From NCBI RefSeq assembly GCF_009600605.1, contig NZ_VWNA01000001.1, positions 3,706,501-3,770,500 of the forward strand: DNA of 64,000 nucleotides, given 5' to 3'. The notes under the pieces were generated by a model. The model was not told the DNA's origin, did no database searches, and saw nothing but the letters and a program-made list of their open reading frames with translations. The DNA is from Segnochrobactrum spirostomi (lineage in GTDB: Bacteria; Pseudomonadota; Alphaproteobacteria; Rhizobiales; Segnochrobactraceae). Numbering within the stretch: the first letter of the stretch is position 1; each line of letters begins with the position of its first letter. Shown one piece after another: positions 1 to 18,553 of the stretch. The position numbers and the translations under genes were made by a program.

Positions 1-52
1 CCGCGCCATCGACGCGGCCTTCGCCGCCGCCTCCCGCGTCGCCGCCGAGTAA
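1..52 (+). CDS. C-terminal tail of an upstream gene, probably preT (partial)
   Basis: An open frame enters from the left edge (first complete codon at base 2) and ends at the TAA at 50-52. It encodes an Ala-rich tail ending AAFAAASRVAAE. The next gene is preA. In this pathway the NADH- and FAD-binding subunit PreT usually lies directly upstream of preA, so this is most likely the end of preT. That identification rests on context alone, because too little sequence is visible to recognise a domain. Confidence 0.45.
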   Translation, partial: RAIDAAFAAASRVAAE

Positions 53-105
53 GCCGCGGACTAACGCCGCACGTCTTTTGCCGACTTCATCCTCAGGAGG
101 ATGTC

Positions 106-1416
106 ATGGCCGATCTCTCCGTCGATTTCTGCGGCATCAAGGCGCCGAACCCGTTCTGGCTCGCCTCCGCGCCGCCGACCGACAAGGAATACAACGTCGA
201 GCGCGCCTTCCGGGCGGGCTGGGGCGGCGTCGTGTGGAAGACGCTGGGCGAGGAAGGGCCGCCGGTCGTCAACGTCTCCGGTCCGCGCTACGGCGCGCTG
301 CACGGCCCCGACCGGCGCGTCATGGGCTTCAACAACATCGAGCTCATCACCGACCGGCCGCTCGAGGTGAACCTCGCCGAGATCAAGGCGGTGAAGAGCC
401 GGTGGAAGGATCGCGCGGTCGTCGTCTCGCTGATGGTCCCGTGCGAGGAGGAGGCGTGGAAGAAGATCCTGCCGCGCGTCGAGGAGACCGGCTGCGACGG
501 CATCGAGCTCAACTTCGGCTGCCCCCACGGCATGTCGGAGCGCGGCATGGGCTCGGCGGTCGGGCAGGTGCCCGAATATGTCGAGATGGTCGCGCGCTGG
601 TGCAAGCAGAACACCCGCATGCCGGTGATCGTGAAGCTGACGCCGAACATCACCGACGTCCGTCGCCCCGCAGAAGCCGCGCGGCGCGGCGGCGCCGATG
701 CCGTCTCGCTCATCAACACCATCAACTCGATCATGGGCGTCGATCTCGACGCCATGGCGCCCAGTCCGCACACCGACGGCAAGGCGACCCACGGCGGCTA
801 TTGCGGCGCCGCGGTGAAGCCGATCGCACTGCACATGGTCGCCGACATCGCCCGCTCTCCGGCGACCCACGGCATGCCACTCTCGGGGATCGGCGGCGTC
901 GAGACCTGGCGCGATGCGGCCGAATTCATGGCGCTCGGCTGCGGCACCGTGCAGGTGTGCACCGCCGCGATGGTCTACGGTTTCGGCATCGTGCGGGAAA
1001 TGATCACCGGCCTCGAAGCCTGGATGGACGAAAAGGGCTATGAGCGGTTGTCCGATTTCGTCGGCCGCGCGGTGCCGAACGTCACCGACTGGCAGCACCT
1101 CAACCTGAACTATGCGGTGAAGGCGCGCATCGACCAGGATCTCTGCATCAAGTGCGGGCGCTGCCACATCGCCTGTGAGGATACGTCCCACCAAGCGATC
1201 TTCGCCACCAAGGACGGGATGCGGCACTTCGAGGTCAACGACGCGGAGTGCGTCGGCTGCAATCTCTGCGTCAACGTCTGCCCGATCGAGGACTGCATCA
1301 CGATGGTGCCGCTGATGAACGAGCTCGACGCCCGCACCGGCCGCTATGTCGACGGCTCCGTGCTGCCCTGGACCGCCCACCCGAACAACCCGGCGGTCCG
1401 CCAAGCGGCGGAGTGA
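106..1416 (+). CDS. preA: NAD-dependent dihydropyrimidine dehydrogenase subunit PreA
   Basis: The 436-residue protein reduces uracil or thymine to the 5,6-dihydro form, with PreT supplying electrons from NADH. It is the first step of reductive pyrimidine breakdown in the cytoplasm. Residues 1 to about 320 form the dihydroorotate-dehydrogenase-like FMN barrel, with the typical segment ELNFGCPHGMSERGMG near residue 145. The C-terminus carries two ferredoxin-type 4Fe-4S motifs: CIKCGRCHIAC from about residue 347 and CVGCNLCVNVCPIEDC from about 383. The start is set by AGGAGG at 95-100, six bases before the ATG. The preceding gene ends 53 bases upstream, so co-transcription with preT is likely. 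The rest of the pathway (hydA and an amidase) lies downstream, beyond the importer genes. Confidence 0.95.
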   Translation: MADLSVDFCGIKAPNPFWLASAPPTDKEYNVERAFRAGWGGVVWKTLGEEGPPVVNVSGPRYGALHGPDRRVMGFNNIELITDRPLEVNLAEIKAVKSRWKDRAVVVSLMVPCEEEAWKKILPRVEETGCDGIELNFGCPHGMSERGMGSAVGQVPEYVEMVARWCKQNTRMPVIVKLTPNITDVRRPAEAARRGGADAVSLINTINSIMGVDLDAMAPSPHTDGKATHGGYCGAAVKPIALHMVADIARSPATHGMPLSGIGGVETWRDAAEFMALGCGTVQVCTAAMVYGFGIVREMITGLEAWMDEKGYERLSDFVGRAVPNVTDWQHLNLNYAVKARIDQDLCIKCGRCHIACEDTSHQAIFATKDGMRHFEVNDAECVGCNLCVNVCPIEDCITMVPLMNELDARTGRYVDGSVLPWTAHPNNPAVRQAAE

Positions 1417-1437
1417 GTCGGGGTAAGCTGGGAAAGG

Positions 1438-1564
1438 CCCCTCATCCGGCCCTACCGGGCCACCTTCTCCCCGGCGGGGAGAAGGAGCGGAGAGGTTGGT
1501 GATCGTAAGGAAGGCGAGGCGCTTCGGCTCCCTCTCCCCGCCGGGGAGAGGGCTGGGGTGAGGG
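1438..1564. repeat. 127-bp palindromic intergenic repeat, copy A1
   Basis: This copy lies just after preA and has a direct repeat at 1999-2125. By eye the two differ at about 9 of 127 positions. Each copy holds two internal inverted repeats, one built on CTTCTCCCC/GGGGAGAAG and one on CCCTCTCCCC/GGGGAGAGGG, so its transcript would fold strongly. Together the two copies frame the first DUF559 gene. Palindromic repeats of this look are common between genes in Rhizobiales. Its hairpins could also limit read-through from preA. Confidence 0.85.
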
Positions 1565-1615
1565 GAATGGCACCGGGCTTTCAGGATCCGAGACCACTCG
1601 GCACGCGGGGGCGCC

Positions 1616-1978
1616 ATGGTGGAGGGAGAGGAGAAGAGAGCGGCGACGGTTCAACGGGCGCGGAGCCTGCGCGTGAGCATGACGGCGCCCGAGCAGCGCT
1701 TGTGGGCTCATCTGCGGGATCGGCGCTTGGGCGGGTACAAGTTCGTTCGGCAGATGCCGATCGGTCGCTACGTCGCGGACTTCGCATGCCGGGAGCGGAG
1801 GCTGATCGTCGAGGTCGACGGATGGCAGCATGCGGAGAGCCGGGGCGATCGCGTCCGGGACGAGGCGTTGCGTGTGCAAGGTTACCGCGTGCTGCGGTTC
1901 TGGAACGACGAGGTTTCGCGCGAGATGGAGAACGTCTTGGAGACGATCCTCGCCGCGTTGGAGGGGCGGTTGGATTGA
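1616..1978 (+). CDS. DUF559 domain protein (Vsr-like endonuclease fold), copy 1
   Basis: The protein has 120 residues. After a basic N-terminus it shows the DUF559 pattern: TAPEQRLWAHLRD from about residue 22, then F-R-Q-x-P-I-G-x-Y-V-A-D-F, then LIVEVDGWQH around residue 64, and a closing GYRVLRFWNDEV. DUF559 resembles the very-short-patch-repair endonuclease fold, and the Asp of ADF and the Glu-Val-Asp triad are the likely metal ligands. The cellular role of the family is not established. The gene sits between two direct copies of a 127-bp palindromic repeat and interrupts the pyrimidine locus. A second DUF559 gene with its own flanking repeats lies at 7258-7728. Family assignment is firm; function is unknown. 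Confidence 0.85.
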   Translation: MVEGEEKRAATVQRARSLRVSMTAPEQRLWAHLRDRRLGGYKFVRQMPIGRYVADFACRERRLIVEVDGWQHAESRGDRVRDEALRVQGYRVLRFWNDEVSREMENVLETILAALEGRLD

Positions 1979-1998
1979 GGGGGGCGATGATGTGCCGG

Positions 1999-2125
1999 CC
2001 CCTCATCCGGCCCTACCGGGCCACCTTTTCCCCGGCGGGGAGAAGGAGCGGAGAGGTTGGTGACCGCAAGGAAGACGAGACGCTCCGACTCCCTCTCCCC
2101 GCTGGGGAGAGGGCGGGGGTGAGGG
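1999..2125. repeat. 127-bp palindromic intergenic repeat, copy A2
   Basis: This is the direct repeat of 1438-1564, offset by 561 bases, with about 93% identity by eye. It begins 20 bases after the DUF559 stop codon and ends about 45 bases before the 3' end of rutR. As in copy A1, the inverted repeats around CCCCGGCGGGG and CCCCGCTGGGG would form hairpins. Those could terminate transcription of the convergent DUF559 and rutR genes. Confidence 0.85.
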
Positions 2126-2170
2126 CCCTTCGAGACTAAGAACCTTGAGGATACGAGCGATTTCGGGGAC

Positions 2171-2905
2171 TCAACGCGGGACGATGCCGCGGAGCAGGAT
2201 GGCGAGGAGAGCGTCGTGGGAGCGGCGGTAGAAGGCGTCGTCGGACAAGTCGCGGCCGGTGAGGGCGCGGATCTGGAAGGCGAAGTCGGCATAATGCTGG
2301 GTCGTCGCCCAGATCGAGAAGATCAGATGGAGCGGCTCGATCGGGGCGAGGCGGCCCTCGGCGATCCAGCGTTCGATCGTCTTCGTCTTGGCGTCGACCA
2401 GGGCCTTCAAGGGGCCGCTCAGCATGGCGCCGAGATGGGGGGCGCCTTGCAGGATCTCGAGCGCGAACAGTCGCGAGGCCGCCGGATAGAGCCGCGAGGC
2501 CTCGAGCTTGCGGGCGACATAATCCGTGATCGCCTCGATCGGATCGCGGGCATCGTCCATCTCGCCGAGCGGGACCAGCCAGCGCTCCAGCGTGGTTTCG
2601 AGGACCGCCGTATAGAGCAGGTCCTTGGTGCGGAAATAATAGAGCAGGTTCGGCTTCGACATGCCGGCCGCGGCCGCGATGTCGTCGATGCGGGCGCCGT
2701 GGAGGCCGAGGGTCGAGAAGGCCTCGGTCGCCGCTTCGAGGATGCGCTCGACATTCGCCTCGCCGACCCGCGTCTTGGCCCGGAAGGGGCCCGAGGCGTC
2801 CCGCGTCGCCGCCCCGTCCGTCTTGGCACGCCCCGGCCGCTTGCGGGCGGCGGGCGTTTCTGGCGCAATCGGGCGGAAGTCGTCCGGGGTCGGTTCGCGG
2901 TTCAT
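2171..2905 (-). CDS. rutR: TetR-family pyrimidine regulator RutR
   Basis: The 244-residue regulator is expected to sense uracil or thymine and control pyrimidine-use genes. The TetR helix-turn-helix lies near residues 72-92 (RIDDIAAAAGMSKPNLLYYF). The rest matches the RutR/YcdC-type C-terminal ligand domain, including LYPAASRLFALEILQGAPHL. A 45-residue Lys/Arg/Pro-rich N-terminal tail precedes the usual start of the domain. I chose the ATG at 2903-2905 rather than upstream in-frame codons because the upstream codons would run through the operator at 2926-2941. The gene is divergent from the pyrimidine ABC importer. The operator match and the pathway genes on both sides support the name RutR over a generic TetR call. 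Confidence 0.88.
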   Translation of the reverse strand: MNREPTPDDFRPIAPETPAARKRPGRAKTDGAATRDASGPFRAKTRVGEANVERILEAATEAFSTLGLHGARIDDIAAAAGMSKPNLLYYFRTKDLLYTAVLETTLERWLVPLGEMDDARDPIEAITDYVARKLEASRLYPAASRLFALEILQGAPHLGAMLSGPLKALVDAKTKTIERWIAEGRLAPIEPLHLIFSIWATTQHYADFAFQIRALTGRDLSDDAFYRRSHDALLAILLRGIVPR

Positions 2906-2925
2906 GGACGGATGTTGCCTGTATT

Positions 2926-2941
2926 TTGTCCAACCGGTCAA
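2926..2941. promoter_or_regulatory. Candidate RutR operator
   Basis: The sequence TTGTCCAACCGGTCAA matches the E. coli RutR consensus TTGACCA-NN-TGGTCAA at 12 of its 14 defined positions. The site is 21 bases upstream of the rutR start codon, between rutR and the divergent importer operon. Repression of rutR by its own product is the simplest reading. Control of the importer, whose first ATG is about 210 bases away, is possible but less direct. Confidence 0.75.
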
Positions 2942-3153
2942 ATGAACGGGCACGCGATCGACCGGAATGCGGAGGTGTCGTCGTCACCGCGACCCGATTC
3001 CGGGCCGCTTGTCCACCGCCTTCGCGCAGCCGGACCCGGCTGCGGCGCGTTGCGGTTGCGACCTTCGGCGAAGAACGCGCATCGTGGCACGACGCTTGCG
3101 ATGAAACGGGGCGGCACGGCCCGAACGGAACGGCCGAGCGCGGGAGAGCGTGA

Positions 3154-3993
3154 ATGGCGTTGAGCGAAGCGACCAGCGAAGCTGCGGCGACGGCGGCCGT
3201 CCCTCGGCCGGACCGGCGGTCGGTCATCAGCATCGCTGGCCTCGATCTCACCTTTGAGACCGCTGACGGGCCGGTCTATGCGTTGTCGAACGTCGATCTC
3301 GACGTCCGCGAGGGCGAATTCGTCTCCTTCATCGGCCCGTCGGGCTGCGGGAAGACGACGCTCCTGCGGGCGATCGCCGACCTCGAGCAGCCGACCGCGG
3401 GCACGCTCCTCGTCAACGGGCTCTCCGCCCACGAGGCGCGGCTGCGCCGGCAATATGGCTACGTCTTTCAGGCGCCGGCGCTCTATCCCTGGCGCACGAT
3501 CGAGAAGAACGTGATGCTGCCGCTCGAGATCATGGGGCTTTCCCTGGCCGAGCGACGCGAACGGGCGAGGAAGCAGCTCTCTCTCGTCAACCTGACCGGC
3601 TTCGAGCGCAAATTCCCCTGGCAGCTCTCCGGCGGCATGCAGCAGCGCGCCTCGATTGCGCGCGCGCTGTCGTTCGACCCGGCGCTCCTCCTCATGGACG
3701 AGCCGTTCGGCGCCCTCGACGAGATCGTGCGGGACCATCTCAACGAGGAACTCCTCAAGCTCTGGGCGGCGACCAGCAAGACGGTGGTGTTCGTCACCCA
3801 TTCGATCCAGGAGGCGGTCTTCCTCTCGACCAAGATCGTGGTGATGTCGCCCCGGCCGGGCCGGATCATCGACGTGATCCCCTGCGATCTGCCGGCCGAG
3901 CGCACCCTCGACATCCGCGAGACGCCGGACTTCCTCAAGATCGCGCACCGCGTGCGCGAAGGCTTGCGCGCGGGGCATGCTTATGGCGACTGA
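3154..3993 (+). CDS. ABC transporter ATP-binding protein (NitT/TauT type), pyrimidine locus
   Basis: The 279-residue ATPase powers a cytoplasmic-membrane importer. It shows Walker A GPSGCGKTT near residue 61, the signature LSGGMQQR near residue 156, and Walker B LLLMDEPFGALD just after. The family is the nitrate/sulfonate/taurine group, which also serves thiamine-precursor and pyrimidine-like uptake systems. It starts an operon with two permeases and a periplasmic binding protein. Its 3' end overlaps the next gene by about 17 bases. Sitting between rutR and hydA, the importer probably carries a pyrimidine, a dihydropyrimidine or a hydantoin. The substrate is inferred from context only. Confidence 0.9.
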   Translation: MALSEATSEAAATAAVPRPDRRSVISIAGLDLTFETADGPVYALSNVDLDVREGEFVSFIGPSGCGKTTLLRAIADLEQPTAGTLLVNGLSAHEARLRRQYGYVFQAPALYPWRTIEKNVMLPLEIMGLSLAERRERARKQLSLVNLTGFERKFPWQLSGGMQQRASIARALSFDPALLLMDEPFGALDEIVRDHLNEELLKLWAATSKTVVFVTHSIQEAVFLSTKIVVMSPRPGRIIDVIPCDLPAERTLDIRETPDFLKIAHRVREGLRAGHAYGD

Positions 3994-4930
3994 CGCGCTC
4001 GGCCGGCACGAGGGACGGCAGCAGACCGCGGCGCGGCCGCGGCGCGGGCTGTGGACCCGCCTGATGTCCGGGACCGCCGGCCCGGTGATCGCGATCCTGA
4101 TCGTGATCGTCGCCGTCTGGTATCTCGCGGCGATCGCCCTCAACGCCCCGACCGCCCGCGACGCCTTCGCCCGCGCCGATGCCGCCTACGGTCCGCTCGA
4201 CCTCGTGACGGCCACGTGGTCGCAGGAACGGCCGCTGCTGCCGGCGCCGCACCAGATCGCCGGGGAGCTCCAGAAATCGGTGTTTGGCCTGTCGCCGACC
4301 TCCAAGCGGTCGCTGGTCTATCACGGCTGGGTCACGCTCTCGGCCGCCCTGCTCGGGTTCGGCTTCGGGACGGTGATCGGCATCGTGCTCGCGGTCCTCA
4401 TCGTCCACGTGAAGACGCTCGAAAAGAGCCTGATGCCGTGGATCATTTCCTCCCAGATGGTGCCGATCCTCGCCGTCGCCCCGATCGTCATCGTCGTGCT
4501 CGGCTCGATCGGCATCCGCGGCACCGTGCCGAAGTCCTTGATCTCGACCTATCTGTGCTTCTTCCCCGTCGCCATCGGCATGGTGAAGGGGCTCAATTCG
4601 CCGGACGTGCTCGCCCGCGATCTGATGCGCACCTATTCGGCGACCCAAGCGCAGACCTTCTTCAAGCTTCGCCTGCCGGCCTCGGTGCCGTTCCTGTTCG
4701 CGAGCCTCAAGGTCGCGGCGGCGATCTCGCTGATCGGCGCCATCGTCGCCGAGCTGCCGACCGGCGCCCAGGCGGGCCTCGGCGCGCGGCTCCTCGCCGG
4801 CTCCTATTATGGACAGACCGTGCAGATCTGGGCGGCGCTCATCGCGGCAGCCGTGGTCGCCGCCGGCCTCGTTCTGGTGATCGGGCTCGTCGAGAGGGCG
4901 GTCGGGCGGCTGATGGGGGCGCGACCGTGA
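3977..4930 (+). CDS. ABC transporter permease 1, pyrimidine locus
   Basis: The 317-residue inner-membrane permease is of the BPD_transp_1 type. An N-terminal membrane helix around residues 35-53 is followed by a periplasmic-looking stretch to about residue 105. The core helices come next, with an EAA-like loop at DLMRTYSATQAQTFFKLRLP that docks the ATPase. Two in-frame ATGs exist at 3977 and 3983, and both overlap the end of the ATPase gene. The stop codon overlaps the GTG of the second permease (GTGA), which indicates translational coupling. The extra N-terminal domain makes it longer than the usual 250-280 residues. Confidence 0.88.
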   Translation: MLMATDALGRHEGRQQTAARPRRGLWTRLMSGTAGPVIAILIVIVAVWYLAAIALNAPTARDAFARADAAYGPLDLVTATWSQERPLLPAPHQIAGELQKSVFGLSPTSKRSLVYHGWVTLSAALLGFGFGTVIGIVLAVLIVHVKTLEKSLMPWIISSQMVPILAVAPIVIVVLGSIGIRGTVPKSLISTYLCFFPVAIGMVKGLNSPDVLARDLMRTYSATQAQTFFKLRLPASVPFLFASLKVAAAISLIGAIVAELPTGAQAGLGARLLAGSYYGQTVQIWAALIAAAVVAAGLVLVIGLVERAVGRLMGARP

Positions 4931-6123
4931 GCACCATGACCCGCCCCGTCACCGGCGTCGCGTCCGCCACCGCGTCCGCGGGGAAGGGGAGCCGACGGCG
5001 CTTCGGCCTCGGCCGCCTCGCGCTCGCCTGCGCCGCCCTGCTGGCGCTCATCTCTCTGGTGCTGCCGGCGGGGATCGGGCGCGGGCCGCTCGCGGTCGCG
5101 TTCTGGCCCTCCGTCGTCGTCTTCGCCGCCGCGGTCGTGCTTGGCCGTCTCGCCTTGCGCGGCCGGCGCTCGCCGGGGCTCGTCGGGGCTGGCCTGATCG
5201 CGGCGCTCGCGCTCGCCGCCACCAATCTCTGGATCCTCAAGGCCGCCGCGCTCGAAGGCATCGCCGGTCCGGGCTTCTGGGCGCTCGTGCTCGCCGCCTG
5301 GCTCGGCGCCTCGGCGATGGTCGCCGACCTGACGCATGTCGCGCTGCGCTCGGCCGTCGCCCGCCGCGCCGCGGCGCTCGCCGTGCCGCTCCTGTTCGGC
5401 CTCTACCTGTTCTTCCTGTGGGAGGTGATCGTCCGCGGCTTCGGCGTCCCCTCGGTGCTGATGCCGGCGCCGAGCGCGATCGCGCTGCGCTTCGGCGGGG
5501 CGCTGCCGACGCTGTGGCAGGACTTCGTCCAGACCTTCGTGCGCGGCGTCCTCTCCGGCTACATCATCGGCAACGGCGCGGGCTTCCTCGTCGCCATCGT
5601 CGCCGACCGTGTGCCCTTCCTGCGCCGCGGGCTCCTGCCGCTCGGCAACTTCGTCGCCGCGCTCCCGATCATCGGCATCGCGCCGATCATGGTGATGTGG
5701 TTCGGCTTCGACTGGCCGTCGAAGGCGGCCGTCGTGGTCGTCGTCACCTTCTTCCCGATGCTGGTCAACACGGTCGCCGGCCTCGCCGCCGCCGGACCGC
5801 TCGAGCGCGACCTGATGCGCTCCTACGCGGCGAGCTACGGCCAGACGCTCCTCAAGCTGCGGCTGCCGGCAGCCTTGCCCTTCATCTTCAACGCGCTGAA
5901 GATCAATTCCACCCTCGCGCTGATCGGCGCGATCGTGGCGGAATTCTTCGGCACCCCGATCGTAGGCATGGGCTTCCGCATCTCGGTCGAGGCGGGGCGC
6001 ATGGCGCTCGACATGGTGTGGGCGGAGATCGCGCTCGCGGCCATCGCCGGCACCGCCTTCTACGGCATCCTCGCGCTCATCGAGCGGGCGGCCACCTTCT
6101 GGCACCCGTCGTTTCGTTCGTGA
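4927..6123 (+). CDS. ABC transporter permease 2, pyrimidine locus, with extended N-terminus
   Basis: The protein has 398 residues if translation starts at the GTG at 4927, which overlaps the previous stop; an ATG at 4936 is also in frame. The C-terminal half is a standard BPD_transp_1 permease with the EAA-like loop DLMRSYAASYGQTLLKLRLP. The first 150 residues or so add about four hydrophobic segments that most permeases of this family lack. With permease 1 it would form a heterodimeric channel. Both EAA loops are nearly identical, so the two genes probably arose by duplication. Confidence 0.88.
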   Translation: MSTMTRPVTGVASATASAGKGSRRRFGLGRLALACAALLALISLVLPAGIGRGPLAVAFWPSVVVFAAAVVLGRLALRGRRSPGLVGAGLIAALALAATNLWILKAAALEGIAGPGFWALVLAAWLGASAMVADLTHVALRSAVARRAAALAVPLLFGLYLFFLWEVIVRGFGVPSVLMPAPSAIALRFGGALPTLWQDFVQTFVRGVLSGYIIGNGAGFLVAIVADRVPFLRRGLLPLGNFVAALPIIGIAPIMVMWFGFDWPSKAAVVVVVTFFPMLVNTVAGLAAAGPLERDLMRSYAASYGQTLLKLRLPAALPFIFNALKINSTLALIGAIVAEFFGTPIVGMGFRISVEAGRMALDMVWAEIALAAIAGTAFYGILALIERAATFWHPSFRS

Positions 6124-6133
6124 CGTCTTTCAA

Positions 6134-6149
6134 GCCGCGCTCAAGCGGC
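6134..6149 (+). other. Intercistronic hairpin before the binding-protein gene
   Basis: GCCGC and GCGGC arms enclose a six-base loop between the permease 2 stop and the binding-protein start. The stem is short and no T-run follows. An RNA-stabilising element that favours the binding-protein message is possible. The evidence is weak. Confidence 0.3.
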
Positions 6150-6172
6150 GTCAAACCGGAGGCTGGAACCCT

Positions 6173-7162
6173 ATGAACCTCAAGCATCTCCTCGCCGCGG
6201 GCGTCGCCCTCGGTCTGATGTCGGGCGCGGCGCAGGCGGCCGACCCGGTGACCCTGCAGCTCAAGTGGGTGACCCAGGCGCAGTTCGCCGGTTACTACGT
6301 CGCCAAGGAGAAGGGCTACTACAAGGACGCCGATCTCGACGTCACCATCAACCCGGGCGGACCGGACGTGGCGCCGGAGCAGGTCATCGCCGGCGGCGGC
6401 GCCGACGTGATCGTCGATTGGATGCCGGCCGCGCTCGCCGCCCGCGAGAAGGGCGTGCCGCTCGTCAACGTCTCGCAGCCGTTCAAGAAGTCCGGCCTCG
6501 AACTGACCTGCCGCGCCGACACCGGCATCAAGACGCCGACCGACTTCAAGGGCAAGACGCTGGGCGTCTGGTTCTCGGGCAACGAATATCCGTTCCTCTC
6601 CTGGATGTCGAAGCTCGGCTACAAGACCGACGGCGGCCCGGACGGCGTCACCGTCATCAAGCAGGGCTTCAACGTCGATCCGCTGATCCAGAAGCAGGCG
6701 GCGTGCATCTCGACGATGACCTACAACGAATATTGGCAGGTCATCGACGCCGGCTACACGCCCGAGCAACTCGTCGTGTTCAAGTACGAGGACGAGGGCG
6801 TCGCGACCCTCGAAGACGGCCTCTACGTGATGCAGGACAAGCTGAAGGATCCGGCCTTCGTCGCCAAGATGGCGAAGTTCGTTGCGGCCTCGATGAAGGG
6901 CTGGGACTATGCCCGCGAGCATCCCGACGAGGCGGCCTCGATCGTGCTCGAGAACGACACCACGGGCGCCCAGACCGAGAAGCACCAGAAGCGCATGATG
7001 GCCGAGGTGGCGAAGCTCCTCGACGACAAGGCGAACGGCAAGCTCGACGTCGCCGACTACGAGCGCACCGTGAAGGTCCTGACCTCGGGCGGCTCCGACC
7101 CGGTCATCACCAAGGCGCCGGAAGGGGCCTACTCGTTCGCGCTCTACGACGCGATGAAGTGA
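6173..7162 (+). CDS. NMT1/THI5-like ABC substrate-binding protein, pyrimidine locus
   Basis: The 329-residue periplasmic binding protein has a typical signal peptide ending near residue 22 (SGAAQAADP). The mature part begins with the motif LKWVTQAQFAGYYVAKEKGYY, as in the NMT1/THI5-like family that includes thiamine-pyrimidine binders such as ThiY. It is the last gene of the four-gene importer. A good Shine-Dalgarno (CCGGAGG) precedes the ATG. Together with hydA and the amidase downstream it points to uptake of a pyrimidine-like ring compound. The ligand cannot be read from the sequence. Confidence 0.88.
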   Translation: MNLKHLLAAGVALGLMSGAAQAADPVTLQLKWVTQAQFAGYYVAKEKGYYKDADLDVTINPGGPDVAPEQVIAGGGADVIVDWMPAALAAREKGVPLVNVSQPFKKSGLELTCRADTGIKTPTDFKGKTLGVWFSGNEYPFLSWMSKLGYKTDGGPDGVTVIKQGFNVDPLIQKQAACISTMTYNEYWQVIDAGYTPEQLVVFKYEDEGVATLEDGLYVMQDKLKDPAFVAKMAKFVAASMKGWDYAREHPDEAASIVLENDTTGAQTEKHQKRMMAEVAKLLDDKANGKLDVADYERTVKVLTSGGSDPVITKAPEGAYSFALYDAMK

Positions 7163-7178
7163 GCCGTCGTCCTCAGTC

Positions 7179-7238
7179 CTTGACCCTCCCCTGCCAGGGG
7201 GAGGGTCGACGGCCGAAGGCCGGCGGGGTGGGGTAAGC
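7179..7238. repeat. Palindromic repeat B1, inverted relative to B2
   Basis: The element contains GACCCTCCCC and GGGGAGGGTC around a short loop, then a GC-rich arm with GGCCGAAGGCC. Its reverse complement matches 7669-7732 over most of its length. With B2 it frames the second DUF559 gene as an inverted pair. It also follows the importer operon, where its hairpin could terminate transcription. Confidence 0.75.
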
Positions 7239-7257
7239 CCGGAACGAGGTCGGAGCC

Positions 7258-7728
7258 ATGGCCGGGTCAGACCCGCTCAGCCGCTTCAGACGCGATACCG
7301 CTCGGAAGCTCCGCCATGACGAGACCGAGGCGGAGCGGACGCTGTGGCGTGCACTCTCGAAGGTCCCGCTCGTGGGGTCGCATTTCCGGCGTCAGGTGGT
7401 CATCGGGCCCTTCATCGCGGATCTTGCCTGCTTGGCCGCGAAGCTTGTGATCGAAGTCGATGGAAGCCACCACAACGATGCCGATCAGGCGGACAAGGAC
7501 GAAAGACGGACGAAATGGCTGGAAAGCCAAGGCTTCCGTGTCCTCCGCTTCCATAACCGTGAGGTCATGCTGGAGACGCCAGCGGTCCTCGAAACGATCT
7601 ACTCCGCGCTCTATGGCGGTCCGCATGGCGAAGCGGCCCGCTTGAAACATCAGAGGCGCTCGAGCGCCGGCCTAACCCCACCCCGCCGCCCCGAGGGCGG
7701 CGACCCTCCCCCTGACAGGGGAGGGTGA
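7258..7728 (+). CDS. DUF559 domain protein (Vsr-like endonuclease fold), copy 2
   Basis: The protein has 156 residues. The family core spans about residues 10-125: TEAERTLWRAL, then F-R-R-Q-V-V-I-G-P-F-I-A-D-L, LVIEVDGSHH, and a final GFRVLRFHNREV. The same putative metal ligands are present as in the copy at 1616-1978 (Asp of IADL, Glu and Asp of VIEVDG). Its last 20 or so codons (SSAGLTPPRRPEGGD onward) are read from inside the flanking repeat B2, so the C-terminal tail is repeat-derived. The gene separates the importer from hydA. Its role is unknown. Confidence 0.82.
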   Translation: MAGSDPLSRFRRDTARKLRHDETEAERTLWRALSKVPLVGSHFRRQVVIGPFIADLACLAAKLVIEVDGSHHNDADQADKDERRTKWLESQGFRVLRFHNREVMLETPAVLETIYSALYGGPHGEAARLKHQRRSSAGLTPPRRPEGGDPPPDRGG

Positions 7729-7732
7729 AGGG
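7669..7732. repeat. Palindromic repeat B2, inverted relative to B1
   Basis: This element is close to the reverse complement of 7179-7238, sharing the ACCCCACCCCGCC arm and the GACCCTCCCC / GGGGAGGGT hairpin. It overlaps the last codons of the DUF559 gene and ends about 70 bases before the hydA start. Confidence 0.75.
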
Positions 7733-7800
7733 GGGCGCGCTGTTCCCCTTCGCTCGTGGCGCGATGGCGCAAAAACGATCGGAATAAGGAGTACCATCCC

Positions 7801-9255
7801 ATGAGCATCCTCATCCGCGGCGGCACCGTGGTGAATCACGATTGGTCGCGCCGGGCCGACGTCCTCGTCGAGGGCGGGTCGATCGTCGCCGTCGGGGCGA
7901 ACCTCGAGGCGCCGGCCGGGGCCGAGGTGATCGACGCCGGCGGTGCCTACGTCATGCCCGGCGGCATCGATCCGCACACCCATCTCGACTTCATGTTCAT
8001 GGGCAACGTGTCGGCCGACGATTTCGAGTGGGGCACCAAGGGCGCGCTCTCCGGCGGCACCACGATGGTCATCGATTTCTGCGTGCCCGGACCCGGCCAG
8101 TCGATGCTCGCCGCCTATCAGGATTGGCGCCGCAAGGCCGAGAACGCCGCCTCCGACTACGGCTTCCACATGGCCGTGACCTGGTGGGACAAGCAGGTCT
8201 ACGACGAGATGGAGACCGTCGTCCGCACCTACGGCATCAACACCTTCAAGCACTTCCTCGCCTACAAGGGCGCCTTGATGGTGAACGACGACGAGCTGTT
8301 CCACTCGTTCTCGCGCTGCGCCGCGATCGGCGCGATGCCGCTCGTCCATGCCGAGAACGGCGACGTCGTGTTCCGCCTCCAGCAGCATTATCTGGAGACC
8401 GGCGTGACCGGCCCCGAGGGCCACGCTTATTCGCGCCCACCCGAGGTCGAGGGCGAGGCGACCAACCGCGCCATCATGATCGCCGATATGGCCGGCGTGC
8501 CGCTCTATGTGGTCCACACTTCCTGCCAGCCGGCCCACGAAGCGATCGCCCGCGCCCGCGCCGCCGGCAAGCGGGTCTACGGCGAGCCCTTGATCCAGCA
8601 CCTCGTGCTCGATGCCGGGGAATATCTCAACAAGGACTGGGATTATGCGGCGCGGCGGGTGATGTCGCCGCCGTTCCGGCCGAGGGAGCACCAGGCGAGC
8701 CTGTGGGCCGGGCTGCAATCCGGCTCGCTCCAGGTGGTCGCGACCGACCATTGCGCCTTCACCACCGAGCAGAAGCGCATGGGGCTCACCGACTTCACCA
8801 AGATCCCGAACGGCACGGGCGGGCTCGAGGACCGCATGCCGGTTTTGTGGACGGCGGGCGTCAATACCGGGCGGCTGACGCGCGAGGAGTTCGTCGCCGC
8901 GACCTCGGCGAACATCGCCCGAATCCTCAACGTATATCCCAAGAAGGGCGCCATCGCGCCGGGCTCGGACGCCGACATCGTGATCTGGGACCCCGAGGCG
9001 ACCAAGCGCATCTCGGCCAAGGATCAGGTCAGCCGCATCGATTACAACGTCTTCGAGGGCTACGAGGTGAAGGGACTGCCGGCAATCGTGCTGTCGCGCG
9101 GCAAGGTGGTGTGGATCGACAAGGATCTGCGCGCCGAGGCCGGCGACGGGCAATATGTGCCGCGCGATCCCTATCCGGCGGTCCACATCGCCAACGCTAA
9201 GTGGCGCGAGCTCAATATTCCCCGTAAGGTAGAGCGTGCCGATGTGACACCTTAG
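7801..9255 (+). CDS. hydA: Dihydropyrimidinase (D-hydantoinase)
   Basis: The 484-residue cyclic amidase opens dihydrouracil or dihydrothymine to the N-carbamoyl-beta-amino acid. It is step two of the pathway begun by PreAT. It is a zinc amidohydrolase: the metal-binding HTHLD is near residue 59, the Lys likely to be carboxylated is in FKHFLAYKG near residue 150, and further ligands lie in HAEN near 182 and in HTSC. I start at the ATG at 7801 because AAGGAG (7786-7791) is well spaced, whereas the longer frame has no such signal. The last dozen codons (NIPRKVERADVTP) run into unusually AT-rich DNA. The native C-terminus may therefore have been altered by the insertion that follows. Confidence 0.95.
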   Translation: MSILIRGGTVVNHDWSRRADVLVEGGSIVAVGANLEAPAGAEVIDAGGAYVMPGGIDPHTHLDFMFMGNVSADDFEWGTKGALSGGTTMVIDFCVPGPGQSMLAAYQDWRRKAENAASDYGFHMAVTWWDKQVYDEMETVVRTYGINTFKHFLAYKGALMVNDDELFHSFSRCAAIGAMPLVHAENGDVVFRLQQHYLETGVTGPEGHAYSRPPEVEGEATNRAIMIADMAGVPLYVVHTSCQPAHEAIARARAAGKRVYGEPLIQHLVLDAGEYLNKDWDYAARRVMSPPFRPREHQASLWAGLQSGSLQVVATDHCAFTTEQKRMGLTDFTKIPNGTGGLEDRMPVLWTAGVNTGRLTREEFVAATSANIARILNVYPKKGAIAPGSDADIVIWDPEATKRISAKDQVSRIDYNVFEGYEVKGLPAIVLSRGKVVWIDKDLRAEAGDGQYVPRDPYPAVHIANAKWRELNIPRKVERADVTP

Positions 9256-9272
9256 GTATAGGGGATGGCTTA

Positions 9273-9494
9273 ATGCTGCGTGGCTGGATTATAGAAGCGT
9301 TAGTTGCCCTTGGCGGCTCGGGTACAGTAGTCGATGTGGCGAGGCACATATGGGAAAATCACGAGACAGAACTGCGTGCTTCAGGCGACCTTTTTTATAA
9401 GTGGCAGTATGAAATGCGATGGGTCGGGAGGAGTTTAGTTGAGGATAAGATTATTATAAAGCAGTCGAGGCCTCGCTTGTGGATCCTGAGGTAA
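9273..9494 (+). CDS. Small hypothetical protein, winged-helix-like, in a low-GC insert
   Basis: The frame encodes 73 residues and is not a gene I recognise. The pattern of hydrophobics (ALVALGGSGTVVDVARHIWE, then a Trp-Gln-Tyr-Glu-x-Arg-Trp helix, then SLVEDKIIIK and RLWILR) looks like a small winged helix of the sort found at the N-terminus of Mrr-type restriction proteins. That likeness is an impression only. The gene and its surroundings (about 9210-9506) are much richer in A and T than the rest of the window. It lies between two genes of one pathway, reading in their direction, with only 12 bases to the next start. It may be a remnant of a transferred element. Confidence 0.55.
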   Translation: MLRGWIIEALVALGGSGTVVDVARHIWENHETELRASGDLFYKWQYEMRWVGRSLVEDKIIIKQSRPRLWILR

Positions 9495-9506
9495 TAGGAG
9501 TTTAGA

Positions 9507-10745
9507 GTGCAGAACCTTCAGATCAACCCGCAGCGCCTGTGGGACATGCTGATGGAAACCGCCGCCTTCGGCGGCACGCCGAAGGGAGGCGTCTGCCGGC
9601 TGACGCTCACCGACCTCGACGCCAAGGTGCGCGATTGGTTCAAGGCCGAGTGCGAGAAGGTCGGCTGCACGGTGCGGATCGACGAGGTCGGCAACATGTT
9701 CGCCCTGCGGCCGGGCCGCCGGAATGACTTGCCGCCGATCGCGATGGGAAGCCACCTCGACACCCAGCCGACGGGCGGCAAGTTCGACGGCATCCTCGGC
9801 GTGCTCGGCGGGCTCGAGGTTTTGAAGACGCTCCACGATCTCGGCTACGAGACCAACGCGCCGGTCATGCTGGTCAACTGGACCAACGAGGAGGGCTCGC
9901 GCTTCGCCCCGGCGATGCTCGGCTCCGGCGTGTTCGCCGGCGTGTTCGACCGCGCCTATGCCGACAGCCGCGAGGACCGCAACGGCGTGAGCTTCAAGGA
10001 CGCCATCGAGGCGATCGGCTATCGCGGCGAGGTGCCGGCCGGGGCCGTCGAGCTCGGCGCGATGTTCGAGCTCCACATCGAGCAGGGGCCGATCCTCGAG
10101 GCGGAGGGCAAGACGGTCGGCATCGTCAAGGGCGTGCAGGGCATGCGCTGGTACGAGGCGACGGTGATCGGCAAGGAGGCCCACACGGGCTCGACCCCGA
10201 TGAACCTGCGCCGCGATGCCCTCGTCGGCACCGCGAAGCTGATCGAGGCGGTCAATGCCGTCGCGCTGGCCCATCCGGGGGCGGTCGGCACCGTGGGGCT
10301 CATCGAATCGAAGCCGAATTCGCGCAACGTGATCCCGGGCGAGGTGTTCTTCACCATCGATTTCCGCCATCCCGAGGCGCCGGTGCTCGACGTGCTCGAG
10401 GCGGATTTCGCCGCGGCGGTGGCGAAGATTGCCGAGGCGACCGGGCTCGAGATCACGTGGAAGCGGATCTGGGATTCGCCGCCGGTGGCGTTCCACCCCG
10501 ATCTCATCGAGGCGGTGCGGGAGGGCGCAGCCGTCGCCGGTCTGCCGGCCCGCGAGATCGTCTCGGGTCCGGGCCACGATGCGGCCTATATCGCCCGGGT
10601 CTGCCCGACGACGATGATCTTCGTGCCTTCCAAGGACGGCATCAGCCACAACGAGGCGGAATCGACGACCTTCGACGAATGCGGGGCCGGCGCGCAGGTG
10701 CTGCTGAACGCCGTGCTGACCTACGACCGCCGGTTCGCTGCCTGA
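9507..10745 (+). CDS. Zn-dependent N-carbamoyl amidase (beta-ureidopropionase type, M20 family)
   Basis: The 412-residue enzyme is expected to cleave N-carbamoyl-beta-alanine to beta-alanine, CO2 and ammonia, the last step of reductive pyrimidine breakdown. It shows the M20 metal-site motifs GSHLDTQPTGGKFDG near residue 80, NWTNEEGSRFAP near 128 and HIEQGPILE near 190. A final conserved block reads SGPGHDAAYIA. The start is a GTG at 9507 preceded by AGGAG at 9496-9500. Bacterial members are also called hydantoin-utilisation or L-carbamoylase enzymes. The beta-ureidopropionase role is inferred from its neighbours preA and hydA. Confidence 0.9.
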   Translation: MQNLQINPQRLWDMLMETAAFGGTPKGGVCRLTLTDLDAKVRDWFKAECEKVGCTVRIDEVGNMFALRPGRRNDLPPIAMGSHLDTQPTGGKFDGILGVLGGLEVLKTLHDLGYETNAPVMLVNWTNEEGSRFAPAMLGSGVFAGVFDRAYADSREDRNGVSFKDAIEAIGYRGEVPAGAVELGAMFELHIEQGPILEAEGKTVGIVKGVQGMRWYEATVIGKEAHTGSTPMNLRRDALVGTAKLIEAVNAVALAHPGAVGTVGLIESKPNSRNVIPGEVFFTIDFRHPEAPVLDVLEADFAAAVAKIAEATGLEITWKRIWDSPPVAFHPDLIEAVREGAAVAGLPAREIVSGPGHDAAYIARVCPTTMIFVPSKDGISHNEAESTTFDECGAGAQVLLNAVLTYDRRFAA

Positions 10746-10772
10746 TCGCGGGCCGCGGCGTGGCCGGATCGT

Positions 10773-11132
10773 TTAGGGGCAGCCCACCATATTGTTGGGC
10801 ATCTTCACGCTCGGCGCGCAGGGCTTGATGGGCTTCAGCGGCGCCGGGGCAGGCTGCTGCTGGGGCGCCGGCGGCTTGTAGCCGGGCGTACCGGGGGAGG
10901 GCGGCTGCGGGGCGCCCGAGCGCGGGGATTTCGGCGTCACGCCGTAGCCCGGCGAGGGCGGCGGACCGCCATAGGTCGGGGCCGGCGACGAATAAGGCTG
11001 CACGACGAGCGGGTTGATCTGCACTTGCGCCGCGGCCGGGGTCGCCGCCGCGGCGAGCATCGCGGCGAGAGCCGAGACGCGGATGATGCGTCTCGGGCCT
11101 GCGGCCGCGCTGCGCGGGATCAGGGAATGCAA
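10773..11132 (-). CDS. Exported proline-rich protein of unknown function
   Basis: The 119-residue protein begins with a signal peptide (hydrophobic stretch VSALAAMLAAAATPAAAQ, residues 19-36). The mature chain is more than one quarter proline, with blocks such as PPPSPGYGVTPKSPRSGAPQ and PAPQQQPAPAPLKP. The end holds two cysteines (KPCAPSV and MVGCP) that could pair. The start is an unusual TTG at 11130-11132, supported by a perfect AAGGAGG four bases upstream. It overlaps the end of the phosphatase gene by 13 bases, so the two are translationally coupled. No function can be assigned; a periplasmic or envelope spacer is plausible. Confidence 0.7.
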   Translation of the reverse strand: MHSLIPRSAAAGPRRIIRVSALAAMLAAAATPAAAQVQINPLVVQPYSSPAPTYGGPPPSPGYGVTPKSPRSGAPQPPSPGTPGYKPPAPQQQPAPAPLKPIKPCAPSVKMPNNMVGCP

Positions 11133-11860
11133 TGCGCCTCCTTCGGCAGGCCCTCCGGCGTGTCCCAGTCGTTTTCGGGCAGGCCGGCGAATTTACCCGT
11201 ATAAACTTGCTTCACGGCCCGGAACGACGTCGCCTTCCCGGTCGTCTGGTCGAAGTCCACCACCCAGAAATAATCATAGTTCGTCTCGGGCCAAGTGGTG
11301 GGAACGTCCTTAAAGGCGTCGAGGCCGAGCAACTGGCGCAGCGTGACCTTTTCGCCGGGAAATTCGTGCTCCAGCGCAGCGTCCGCGATGTGGCGATGTT
11401 CCCACATCAGGACGAGGGTTTTGCCGTTCCATTGCGGGTCGGAAAAGATCTGCGCCACGGCTTCGCGATTGTGCCGGTTGAGCTGGGCGTCCTCGCTGTA
11501 CGGGCCTGTCTTCGGCGAGAACGGGAGGACCGAATAGGCGATCACCGGCTGACCCAAGGCATTGGCGAGCGGAACCGCGAATTCCAGGGTATGCAGCGTG
11601 ATGACGAACACCGCTGCCGGCGTCTGACCATCTAGGATCGCGCGGCTTCGCGGCGACGACAGCGCCTGCGGACCGAGATATTGGTTCGCGATGGCGTGGG
11701 AGCGCAGGGCGCCTACCTTGCAGAGTTTGAAGGTGGTCTGCTTCTCCCCGTGGCGTACGATCACGATGCGCTTCGGCGCCGCGCTCGCCGGGGCGGCGAC
11801 ACCGCTGACGAGAATGGCGGCGGCTAGGGAAAAAGCGGACAACAGACGGTCGAGACGCAT
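11120..11860 (-). CDS. Exported histidine phosphatase family protein
   Basis: The protein has 246 residues with a signal peptide ending near residue 27 (GVAAPASAAP). The histidine phosphatase catalytic motif VIVRHGEKQ follows at about residues 32-40. A further conserved block with His (MWEHRHIADAAL) around residue 156 likely carries the second catalytic histidine. Family members remove phosphate from varied substrates, and secreted ones are often phytase- or acid-phosphatase-like. The substrate here is unknown. It forms a two-gene unit with the downstream proline-rich protein. Confidence 0.8.
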   Translation of the reverse strand: MRLDRLLSAFSLAAAILVSGVAAPASAAPKRIVIVRHGEKQTTFKLCKVGALRSHAIANQYLGPQALSSPRSRAILDGQTPAAVFVITLHTLEFAVPLANALGQPVIAYSVLPFSPKTGPYSEDAQLNRHNREAVAQIFSDPQWNGKTLVLMWEHRHIADAALEHEFPGEKVTLRQLLGLDAFKDVPTTWPETNYDYFWVVDFDQTTGKATSFRAVKQVYTGKFAGLPENDWDTPEGLPKEAHCIP

Positions 11861-12065
11861 ACGGAACCCCCATTCCGATCAGTGCGTGCGGCGTGACTTC
11901 CCTTCGAAAAGCCTCACCCCGGCACGCGCTCCAGCAGGATTGCCACAAGACCTTCCGCTCGCGCGCAAGGGCCAGGGCCACTTTTGGTGAAAGGAGAAGG
12001 CTCATCGCCGTCTCCTCGCGTCCAAATTGTACCTGCCGTACTCTGACAAATGGCGGGTCGTATTC

Positions 12066-12113
12066 GGGCGCGAACTTCACAACGACTGTGATCTAGTTTG
12101 GAAATTCGCGCCC
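12066..12113. terminator. Large inverted repeat, possible terminator beyond ialB
   Basis: Arms GGGCGCGAACTTC (12066-12078) and GAAATTCGCGCCC (12101-12113) pair at 12 of 13 positions around a 22-base loop. The element lies about 40 bases downstream of the ialB stop. It is also upstream of the phosphatase gene, so a regulatory site for that gene is an alternative. No clear T-run follows on either strand. Confidence 0.4.
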
Positions 12114-12150
12114 CGTCAACGGAAGCCGGATTCAGCTTTTGTCTTCGGGA

Positions 12151-12735
12151 TTATTTCGACAGCGCGGCGGTGCGGTTGAGCGCGGCGCCGAAGCCCTTGA
12201 GCGAGAGCGTGAAGGTAACCGGCTTGCTCGTGTCCGCGGCGACGGCGTTCAACTTCAACTGCTTGCCCTTGCGCAGATTGGCGATGGTCGCGGCGTCGAA
12301 GTTGATCTGGACGATGCAGCCGACCGGCAGGCAGGTCTGGAACGGCAGCGCCGCGCCCGGAGCGGCATCGTCGATCTGGAGCGTCACGCCGCTTGCGAGC
12401 GCGAGCCCGAACGGCATGGCGAGTACGCCGCGGGCGGCATCTTGGCTCGTCGTGGACAACTCGGCGGCAAGCACGCGCTGCTGGTTCTGCTGATTGACCT
12501 GAGTCTGGGAGAACACGCACCGCTTTTGCCCATCGGGCTCGATGCACATCACGTTCCAGTCGTCGTAGCTCTCCTGGAGTGACGAAGCGCCGCCCGGAAG
12601 GCTGCTCGGTGCGTCTGCCTTCTTGGCCGCGGTTGTGTTGGAAGTCTGGGCCGCGGCGGGCTGAGCCTGCGCGACGAGAAGGGCACCGACGACGGCGCTG
12701 GCGGCGAGCAGCATGTTCGGACGAAGCATGGACAT
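12151..12735 (-). CDS. Invasion-associated locus B (IalB) family protein
   Basis: The 194-residue exported protein has a signal peptide ending near residue 29 (QPAAAQTS) and a low-complexity linker to about residue 50. The IalB-type domain follows, with DDWNVMCI, a CVFSQTQVNQQNQQRVL stretch, then LPVGCIVQINFD and a closing FSLKGF-like repeat. IalB was first linked to erythrocyte invasion in Bartonella, but the family is widespread in free-living Rhizobiales and its biochemical role is not settled. I start at the ATG at 12735 because GAGGAA precedes it on the minus strand. The longer frame upstream has no signal-peptide logic. Confidence 0.85.
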   Translation of the reverse strand: MSMLRPNMLLAASAVVGALLVAQAQPAAAQTSNTTAAKKADAPSSLPGGASSLQESYDDWNVMCIEPDGQKRCVFSQTQVNQQNQQRVLAAELSTTSQDAARGVLAMPFGLALASGVTLQIDDAAPGAALPFQTCLPVGCIVQINFDAATIANLRKGKQLKLNAVAADTSKPVTFTLSLKGFGAALNRTAALSK

Positions 12736-13094
12736 ATCGATCGGTTCCTCATGCGGATCCCGCCCCAAACGGCGATCCGCGGCTGGATGGTTCCGGAGCG
12801 TATGCCTTTTGGGCGAGGGCTCGGCGTCGAGGGGCCGAACGGTGTCGCTTGAAGATCGCACGCCCGAGGAGACGGCTTCACGAAGGCCACCCGTTCGGGC
12901 GCCCCGCTGCTGCTCATACAAAAAGCGCGGGCCCGTTCCAATGCTTATCCACGGGGCCGTGCAACCGGGCCGATGCAATGCACGGTCACGCGGCACCCGC
13001 GAGGCCCTACCCCCGCGCGGGGCTTGTCCACGTCCCGCCGATCCTCTACGGAGACCCATCCACCGTCGCCGAAGCCGGTGCAAAGGAGTGTGCG
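12736..13094. other. 359-base gap between divergent ialB and rfbC
   Basis: This gap must hold the promoters of ialB (leftward) and of the rfb operon (rightward). I see no convincing -35/-10 pair, RNA gene or short coding frame. Open frames cross it on both strands, but they are extensions of the flanking genes in GC-rich DNA. Confidence 0.5.
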
Positions 13095-13663
13095 ATGGAC
13101 GTGCGTACGTTCGCGATTCCGGACCTGAAGCTCGTCATTCCGAAGCGGCACGGGGATGCACGCGGCTTCTTTGTCGAGCTTTGGACGGACCGCCGCTTCC
13201 GCGAACAGGTGGCCGATATCGGGTTCGTGCAGGACAATCTGTCCCGGTCGGCGGAGACGGGGACCATTCGCGGCCTGCATTTCCAGAAGGCGCCCCATGC
13301 CCAGGGCAAGCTGGTGCAGTGCCTTCGCGGTGCGGTTCTCGACGTGGTCGTGGATATCCGTATCGGCTCGCCCACCTATCGCCAGCACGTCGCGGTGCGG
13401 CTCGATGCGGCAGAGGGGCCCAGCTTTGGGTGCCGCCGGGCTTCCTGCACGGGTTCTGCACGCTGGAACCCGATTGCGAGGTCGCCTACAAGGTGACGGA
13501 CTATTACAGTCCGGCGGACGACGGCGCGGTGATCTGGTCGGACCCCGACCTCGGCATCGATTGGCCCGTCGAGCCGGGCAAGGCGGTGGTGTCGGACAAG
13601 GACGGCCGCGCGCCGCGGCTCGCCGAGCTGCCGCCGATCTTCCACTACGAGGCTCGCGCCTGA
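13095..13663 (+). pseudogene. rfbC: dTDP-4-dehydrorhamnose 3,5-epimerase, frameshifted
   Basis: This is the third enzyme of dTDP-L-rhamnose synthesis. Frame 1 from the ATG at 13095 (AAGGAG at 13083-13088) gives a normal N-terminus with GFVQDNLSRS and GTIRGLHFQ up to LDAAEG. It then loses sense after the run GGGG at 13415-13418. The next frame continues exactly where the family expects it, with QLWVPPGFLHGFCTLEP and [19 protein letters not shown], to a stop at 13663. Adding one base at the G-run restores a 189-residue protein, the normal size. As it stands, translation would end near 13496 without the active-site half. Sequencing error, phase variation and true inactivation all remain open. 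Confidence 0.88.
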
Positions 13664-13676
13664 GCGGACATTTCTG

Positions 13677-18459: not shown

Positions 18460-18553
18460 GACGGCAGGCTCCGGTTTGCCAAGCGGTGCCGGCCACGGGT
18501 GGGCGTGCCGACCGGAACCGGATGGCTCGTCATCTCCCCTCGGCGGGCTCGGA

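Follow-up and report, generated by a model that had tools for sequence, protein, structure and literature searches.

The second of the two DUF559 genes in Segnochrobactrum spirostomi raises the question of whether a small nuclease gene, the repeats that frame it and a protein tail encoded in one of these repeats belong to a single unit and, if so, what kind of unit this is. The window, i.e. the whole stretch of 64,000 nucleotides analyzed here (contig NZ_VWNA01000001.1, positions 3,706,501 to 3,770,500), contains both DUF559 genes that a genome-wide search found in the 5.4 Mb genome (4 contigs), and both proteins score over the curated PF04480 cut-off (122.4 and 136.7 bits vs 20.6). The original prediction that the second gene is framed by an inverted repeat pair holds (Table 1): the two B arms are 65 nt long, 85% complementary and 424 nt apart, and they form the longest inverted repeat among those listed by a repeat search of window positions 1-16000. 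The ORF that they frame starts with ATG and encodes 156 aa, the DUF559 domain occupies residues 12-118 (~7291-7611), and the tail extends into the right arm, in which the TGA stop codon (7726-7728) lies as had been noted. The unit is preceded by a gene for an NMT1/THI5-like protein and followed by genes for an amidohydrolase (dihydropyrimidinase/hydantoinase-like) and a peptidase of the M20 family. The two DUF559 genes were also correctly said to be accompanied by different repeat families; the first gene has direct 129-nt copies and the second inverted 65-nt arms.

Table 1. Features of the two DUF559 units, in window positions
Feature	Position	Strand	Basis
Upstream A copy at the first DUF559 gene, 129 nt, made up of two opposed arms	1436-1564	+	direct-repeat search, 78 genome matches
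First DUF559 gene, A-type unit	1616-1978	+	ORF, PF04480 E 3.4e-40
Downstream A copy, 93% identical, direct orientation	1997-2125	+	direct-repeat search, 78 genome matches
Left B arm, inverted copy	7178-7242	-	inverted-repeat search, sequence, dispersed family
Left B arm, outer palindrome	7182-7207		
Left B arm, inner hairpin	7210-7223		
Left B arm, G-rich head facing the gene	7225-7234		
Second DUF559 gene, nuclease	7258-7728	+	ORF, PF04480 E 1e-35, Vsr/EDxHD-type fold model with pLDDT 87
Right B arm, holds the stop codon	7667-7731	+	inverted-repeat search, sequence, dispersed family
Right B arm, C-rich head facing the gene	7676-7685		
Right B arm, inner hairpin	7685-7701		
Right B arm, outer palindrome	7703-7726		

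Both repeats are dispersed in the genome. The 68 matches of the right B arm, all of which were used, fall into 37 clusters, and the 78 matches of the A repeat fall into 39 clusters when three self-overlapping matches are omitted (75/78 used). Among the 39 A clusters, 29 consist of a simple inverted doublet with a gap of 34-76 nt and 6 are singles; the B clusters comprise 23 inverted doublets (one with the gene inside), 3 alternating arrays and 11 singles. An exact copy of the repeat-DUF559-repeat unit, for which the original prediction proposed to search, is absent elsewhere in the genome: with two DUF559 genes in total, the part that is repeated is the palindromic arm, mostly in the form of gene-less inverted doublets. 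The arms of both families are built alike, from a C-rich head that reads CCCCTCATCC in A and CCCCACCCC in B, an inner hairpin, and an outer palindrome whose stem is of the CTCC/GGAG type, and both families fit the layout of REPINs, in which two inverted REP-like arms with a short spacer are the repeated unit. All of the A doublets scored (19/19) pair one alpha with one beta inner hairpin, in the two strand orders 10 and 9 times, which gives the A doublet the look of a single element whose ends differ; in the B family, no such mixed-arm rule was found by length class, and 14/17 pairs fall within one class. One pair of B doublets (L018/L019) matches over 299 nt at 82%, and since this likeness extends into the flanks it is no proof of doublet movement. 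On contig C1, A and B repeats also adjoin each other as mixed clusters (near 18461-18615, 2855407-2855597 and 3656702-3657031).

The pairing of gene and repeats is not a coincidence, as the original prediction had argued. In S. spirostomi the upstream flank matches the downstream flank with 193 and 73 bits at the two genes, and a match of at least 40 bits was found in 0/223 shifted windows. In a first set of loci drawn from relatives, class-wide genomes and plasmid records, a CTCC/GGAG palindrome (stem of at least 7, within 300 bp) accompanies 107/120 testable DUF559 genes, lying upstream at 91, downstream at 85 and on both sides at 69, and is missing at 13/120; the controls gave 2 upstream, 3 downstream and none on both sides in 223 shifted windows and 0/30 at smpB genes of the same class. 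Similarly, the upstream and downstream flanks align with at least 30 bits at 79/114 DUF559 loci compared with 4/223 shifted windows and 0/30 smpB genes. The palindrome definition was set after the first loci had been viewed, and L093-L182 as well as a second set of loci were fetched later. Of these, L123-L182 (60 loci) were picked in order of E-value, passing over genomes already represented by loci and four matches near contig ends; L083-L087 (weak DUF559 matches or contig ends) and L115 (no flank) were left out of the counts, and L149, L161, L163 and L167 were kept although a stop codon lies inside the match. The polarity of the arms is fixed in that the heads of the palindromes face the gene, with 67 pointing inward and 11 outward for the nearest upstream palindrome (6 both, 7 none) and 55 inward and 14 outward for the nearest downstream palindrome (9 both, 7 none). 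A protein tail encoded in the repeat is frequent among DUF559 loci, yet not the rule: the stop codon lies in, or at most 8 nt from, the downstream palindrome at 21/82 scorable loci. Three of the PLSDB plasmid records, CP090106.1 (L284), NZ_OL790696.1 (L240) and NZ_CP141089.1 (L241), look chromosomal by their size (3.7 to 4.9 Mb) and gene content.

The second set consists of 80 loci from named genomes that were chosen by protein similarity alone; 77 are testable, three are common to the first set and one pair is near-identical (L330, L357). A palindrome or a flank match was found at 68/77 of these loci, or at 65/74 without the three shared ones, and in the shifted windows at 5/139 (palindrome) and 3/139 (flank match). 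The signal is present at 32/34 alphaproteobacterial loci and at 36/43 others, the latter drawn from records that include Planctomycetota, Chloroflexi, Omnitrophota, Desulfobacterales and Gastranaerophilales; among the loci of this set that lack a signal are both Haemophilus rows, two of the three Pseudomonas rows and one Variovorax row. At four loci in metagenome-assembled genomes of Desulfobacterales, Rhodocyclaceae, Bacteroidetes and Deltaproteobacteria (L306, L319, L321, L337), the DUF559 gene is flanked by CCCCCC...GGGGGG repeats that have no CTCC core, and these are perhaps a third arm type.

A core type of the palindrome (TCTCC or CCTCC) was assignable in 100/121 rows. On the nuclease tree, which is poorly resolved (66/118 inner branches open), core type changes 14 times compared with a shuffled mean of 33.6, and 0/500 shuffles gave a number as low. 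The nearest nuclease from another host family has the same core type in 84% of cases vs 49.5% by permutation. In the 11 host families with both types, 31/34 loci agree with their outside nuclease neighbor compared with 53% after swapping of labels inside the host family (p 2e-4), and this agreement within families indicates that palindrome type tracks the lineage of the enzyme rather than the host. S. spirostomi itself carries both core types, the A unit being of the T type and the B unit of the C type. The abundance of palindromes also varies with the enzyme. In the 387 alphaproteobacterial genomes searched for DUF559, 126 of which contain it, matches to the pattern CCTCYCCCN{1,10}GGGRGAGG were counted as well, and at least 5 matches were found in 80/95 genomes with a strong DUF559 match (E <=1e-20), 4/31 with weak matches only and 20/261 with none. 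This excess persists inside families (27/31 mixed families; permutation p 5e-5, the minimum obtainable from 20,000 shuffles), and a reversed control pattern is close to zero in nearly all genomes with one clear exception (G105, 65 matches). The counterexamples are 7/95 strong-DUF559 genomes with zero matches and DUF559-free genomes rich in matches, among them G080, G430 and G253 with 47, 45 and 28, respectively.

A second nuclease provides the best argument for specific pairing. In one relative (G008), a small GIY-YIG gene (L220:3085-3372; PF01541 E 1.9e-14) occupies the site in front of the hydantoinase gene, beside an inverted pair of CGTC...CCA palindromes. With this GIY-YIG protein as query, matches were found in 46/144 genomes, and at 30 such loci (L254-L283) CGTC palindromes lie on either side of the gene at 20, on both sides at 8, and the CTCC type is present at 4; by the same motif test, which was written after the GIY-YIG loci had been viewed, CGTC palindromes are present at 3/120 DUF559 loci, 2/30 smpB genes and 5/60 GIY-YIG windows shifted by 900 bp. 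The flanks of the GIY-YIG genes cross-match at 21/30 loci; these include a long direct duplication (L280) and two loci that lack such a palindrome (L266 and L273). In total, DUF559 with CTCC and GIY-YIG with CGTC palindromes constitute a double dissociation.

Combining these observations with what is known of RAYTs, we consider it fairly probable that the DUF559 gene forms, together with its arms, a unit analogous to a REPtron, in which a dedicated endonuclease is kept together with the palindromes on which it would act. In this model, (i) DUF559 would recognize its cognate arm by the C-rich head, the inner hairpin and the CTCC/GGAG palindrome, probably when the arm is folded as a hairpin or cruciform, (ii) DUF559 would nick this arm and in that way bring about the copying of gene-less inverted doublets, and (iii) the gene-less doublets would behave as REPIN-like miniature elements and be the form that spreads. 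DUF559 would then play the part toward CTCC palindromes that RAYT/TnpA-REP, an HUH enzyme unrelated to it, plays toward GTAG REPs. Recognition, nicking and copying, as well as the direction of cause, are what we infer. The unit has the design of RAYT and REPIN: the RAYT/TnpA-REP REPtron likewise is described as a small nuclease gene flanked by family-specific palindromes, with dispersed inverted doublets and co-variation of palindromes and enzyme (PMC3116915, PMC3733652, PMC8266576), REPINs are defined by inverted REP doublets together with a linked RAYT (PMC3116915) and TnpA-REP enzymes are reported to co-evolve with their REPs (PMC8266576). Enzyme and palindromes differ. RAYT is an HUH enzyme (PF01797), whereas the DUF559 unit has a Vsr/EDxHD-type fold, C-rich heads and CTCC stems, and inspection by eye of the A and B doublets aligned from S. 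spirostomi showed no GTAG tag at the stem foot. Moreover, a profile search of the S. spirostomi genome for Y1_Tnp (PF01797) gave 0 matches, and an enzyme of the IS200/RAYT type is therefore not at hand there.

The predicted structure of the second DUF559 protein bears on what else such an enzyme could be doing. The AlphaFold model (pLDDT 87.2, pTM 0.79, 21 sequences; low confidence for residues 121-136) places the protein in the PD-(D/E)XK/Vsr-EDxHD fold. The nearest solved structure is NGO0050 of Neisseria gonorrhoeae (3hrl, titled as putative endonuclease-like; Z 14.1, 40% identity), followed by I-Bth0305I (3r3p, Z 12.2 over 94 residues), two Vsr structures (1cw0, Z 10.5; 1vsr, 9.8) and, more weakly, TnsA (Z 7.6). 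E26, D55, E66, D68 and H72 are among the residues that are invariant in 21 relatives, and we take these acidic and histidine residues to be the putative active site. YcjD, the Escherichia coli DUF559 protein, has served as a PD-(D/E)XK seed, and the resulting profile is reported to detect Vsr (PMC1189080). PADLOC gave weak matches only, the best to DpdF (E 1.4e-4), and we therefore claim no defense system. Matches to the B protein are present in 2/50,697 phage records and at 2 loci in IMG/VR. A search of window positions 1-10000 against Rfam gave no family over the gathering score, and three sub-threshold matches were taken as chance.

The chief rival to the REPtron-like reading, and one that we regard as unlikely, is that DUF559 is a free-standing homing endonuclease that cuts a palindromic doublet and is copied into its spacer, the palindromes themselves being spread by something else; a doublet with a spacer of ~50 nt would then be an empty site and a gene-bearing doublet an occupied one. 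The geometry would fit homing, the gene sitting between inward-facing arms where gene-less doublets have a short spacer (34-76 nt in A compared with the 424 nt here). The fold adjoins that of the catalytic domain of I-Bth0305I, PADLOC returned a weak match to a homing endonuclease (E 1.8e-4) and one DUF559 gene has been labeled an EDxHD homing endonuclease (PMC9403480); the DUF559 proteins studied here differ from I-Bth0305I in that they are stand-alone domains tied to dispersed palindromes. Homing leaves the palindrome richness of DUF559 genomes unexplained unless the enzyme spreads the palindromes too, and the presence of only two genes among 76 clusters in S. spirostomi speaks against it.

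Alternatively, DUF559 may be a Vsr-like mismatch or damage nuclease that is kept by the host, and the palindromes may be terminators, attenuators or regulatory hairpins that suit such a gene. Vsr is known for nicking at T:G mismatches and for its partner cytosine methylase, and the likeness in fold (Z 10.5) is in line with a repair function. VsrA of Caulobacter, which contains DUF559, is reported to cause an SOS response in cells without the cytosine methylase ScmA, and a role in repair has been proposed for it (PMC12907096); compared with Vsr and VsrA, the DUF559 genes analyzed here are distinguished by the flanking palindromes. Also consistent with a host function is that ycjD is found at one locus in thousands of E. 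coli genomes. All the same, we hold this explanation to be improbable, given that terminators would not be matched in type to the lineage of the nuclease, would not be dispersed as inverted doublets of the same arm and would not switch to CGTC palindromes at GIY-YIG genes.

The ycjD locus deserves a description of its own. The gene (b1289 in MG1655) lies between sapF and fabI, and most of this stretch is present in 3333/5426 genomes. By eye, the gene ends in CACCCTCTCCCTGA and is followed by a palindromic repeat whose head is GGGTGAGGGG; the repeat was read by eye only, and the automated palindrome test found none at this locus. In one record (L249:2120-2345), the end of ycjD is a CACCCTCTCCC repeat that is followed by the dispersed palindromic repeat. 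The repeat after ycjD may be boxC, a name that the literature searched does not confirm, and no repeat is annotated at this place in the MG1655 record. For a 201-bp piece containing the repeat downstream of ycjD, the median number of places per genome is 15. Among 60 E. coli records sampled, one of which is a plasmid, there are 13-25 such places (median 19) where the 201-bp stretch is covered (n=37) and 2-17 (median 5) in the chromosomes where it is not (n=22); because phylogroup is a confounder and coverage of the 201 bp rather than strain-level ycjD status was scored, these counts are not a main argument. We also considered E. coli as an empty-site test and rejected it: strains free of ycjD instead carry eef efflux genes between sapF and fabI (see also PMC12817139), and the sapF-fabI interval is therefore more than a plain site of insertion.

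In a genome of the same family without DUF559 (G001), the NMT1 and hydantoinase genes are ~89 nt apart vs 638 nt in S. spirostomi, and this orthologous place without the gene, together with the recurrence of the association in many bacteria, upholds the claim that gene and repeats belong together. A second genome of the family (G002) has a DUF559 gene at the same place with doublets of its own, and the protein is 55% identical to the B protein over the aligned part (59% in a second comparison). In G023, G030 and a Shinella plasmid record, the hydantoinase gene again follows DUF559 directly, but the gene that precedes DUF559 is a different one. In total, DUF559 was found upstream of the hydantoinase gene at 4/25 loci fetched in relatives. 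The B protein groups with that of G002 (95) and the G023 protein with that of G030 (93); the fact that these groups lie apart on the nuclease tree suggests that DUF559 may have arrived at this site repeatedly and not by one old insertion. The Shinella locus partly matches the case of a DUF559 gene in place without repeats, which the original prediction had named as contrary evidence: a doublet is present upstream, and on the downstream side none was found. Elements of this kind recur in front of hydantoinase genes (window 7162-7801, L214, L228, L234, L244, L220), with DUF559 in five genomes or records and GIY-YIG in another.

A classical insertion sequence, a reading close to that of the original prediction, would have the arms as its terminal inverted repeats and DUF559 alone as a cut-and-paste transposase that generates target duplications. 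Inverted arms at both ends and the place without the gene in G001 are as this reading would have it; it is nevertheless very improbable, with two copies of the gene vs ~76 clusters and a first unit that is framed by direct copies. The single insertion difference that was aligned, a doublet present in Sinorhizobium meliloti Ak57 and missing in Sinorhizobium sp. C101 with flanks 94-96% identical, has unclean borders, and a target duplication, for which the original prediction proposed to look, is not visible there. The palindrome pattern had zero matches in positions 1-100000 of pSymB of S. meliloti 1021. Finally, that the genes are passengers, small mobile genes gathering in repeat-rich intergenic sites with the pairing as a by-product, is suggested by the occupation of the hydantoinase front by DUF559 in relatives and by the GIY-YIG gene in G008, and is already disfavored to the point of being scarcely credible by the double dissociation and by the co-variation of palindrome type with the nuclease.

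Returning to the REPtron-like reading, the presence of two unrelated folds each beside its own palindromes allows a more general proposal. RAYT and REPIN may be only one case within an entire class of bacterial elements in which a nuclease is paired with palindromes, with at least DUF559 (CTCC) and GIY-YIG (CGTC) each having taken up and spread their own class of palindrome across several phyla; we put this forward tentatively, its chances being a little short of even. Short palindromic repeats are among the commonest repeats of bacterial genomes, and the agent that spreads the RAYT-less classes is a standing question, which has been stated for CGTC repeats (PMC3733652). CGTC REPs are described in passages of Di Nocera et al. 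2013 (PMC3733652) as predominant in alphaproteobacteria and as having no dedicated transposase; they likewise occur as palindromes and dimers in genomes, and they differ from the repeats of S. spirostomi in sequence class and in being paired, in our data, with GIY-YIG and not with DUF559. If the proposal is true, CGTC REPs and CTCC palindromes each gain a dedicated enzyme, and two uncharacterized small nucleases become concrete candidates with the prediction that the enzyme matches the type of the arm. Our data suggest DUF559 as the hitherto missing partner by which one very common type of bacterial repeat is spread, and in this way a family of 'unknown function' that is present in E. coli K-12 as ycjD gains a testable role. 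Among the papers listed in searches of the open-access literature, none reports a link of DUF559, YcjD or GIY-YIG genes with REP-like repeats, an absence there that is not proof. A GIY-YIG gene of this kind is present in S. spirostomi too (C1:313496-313762), with an array of B repeats ~3 kb away (316536-316905).
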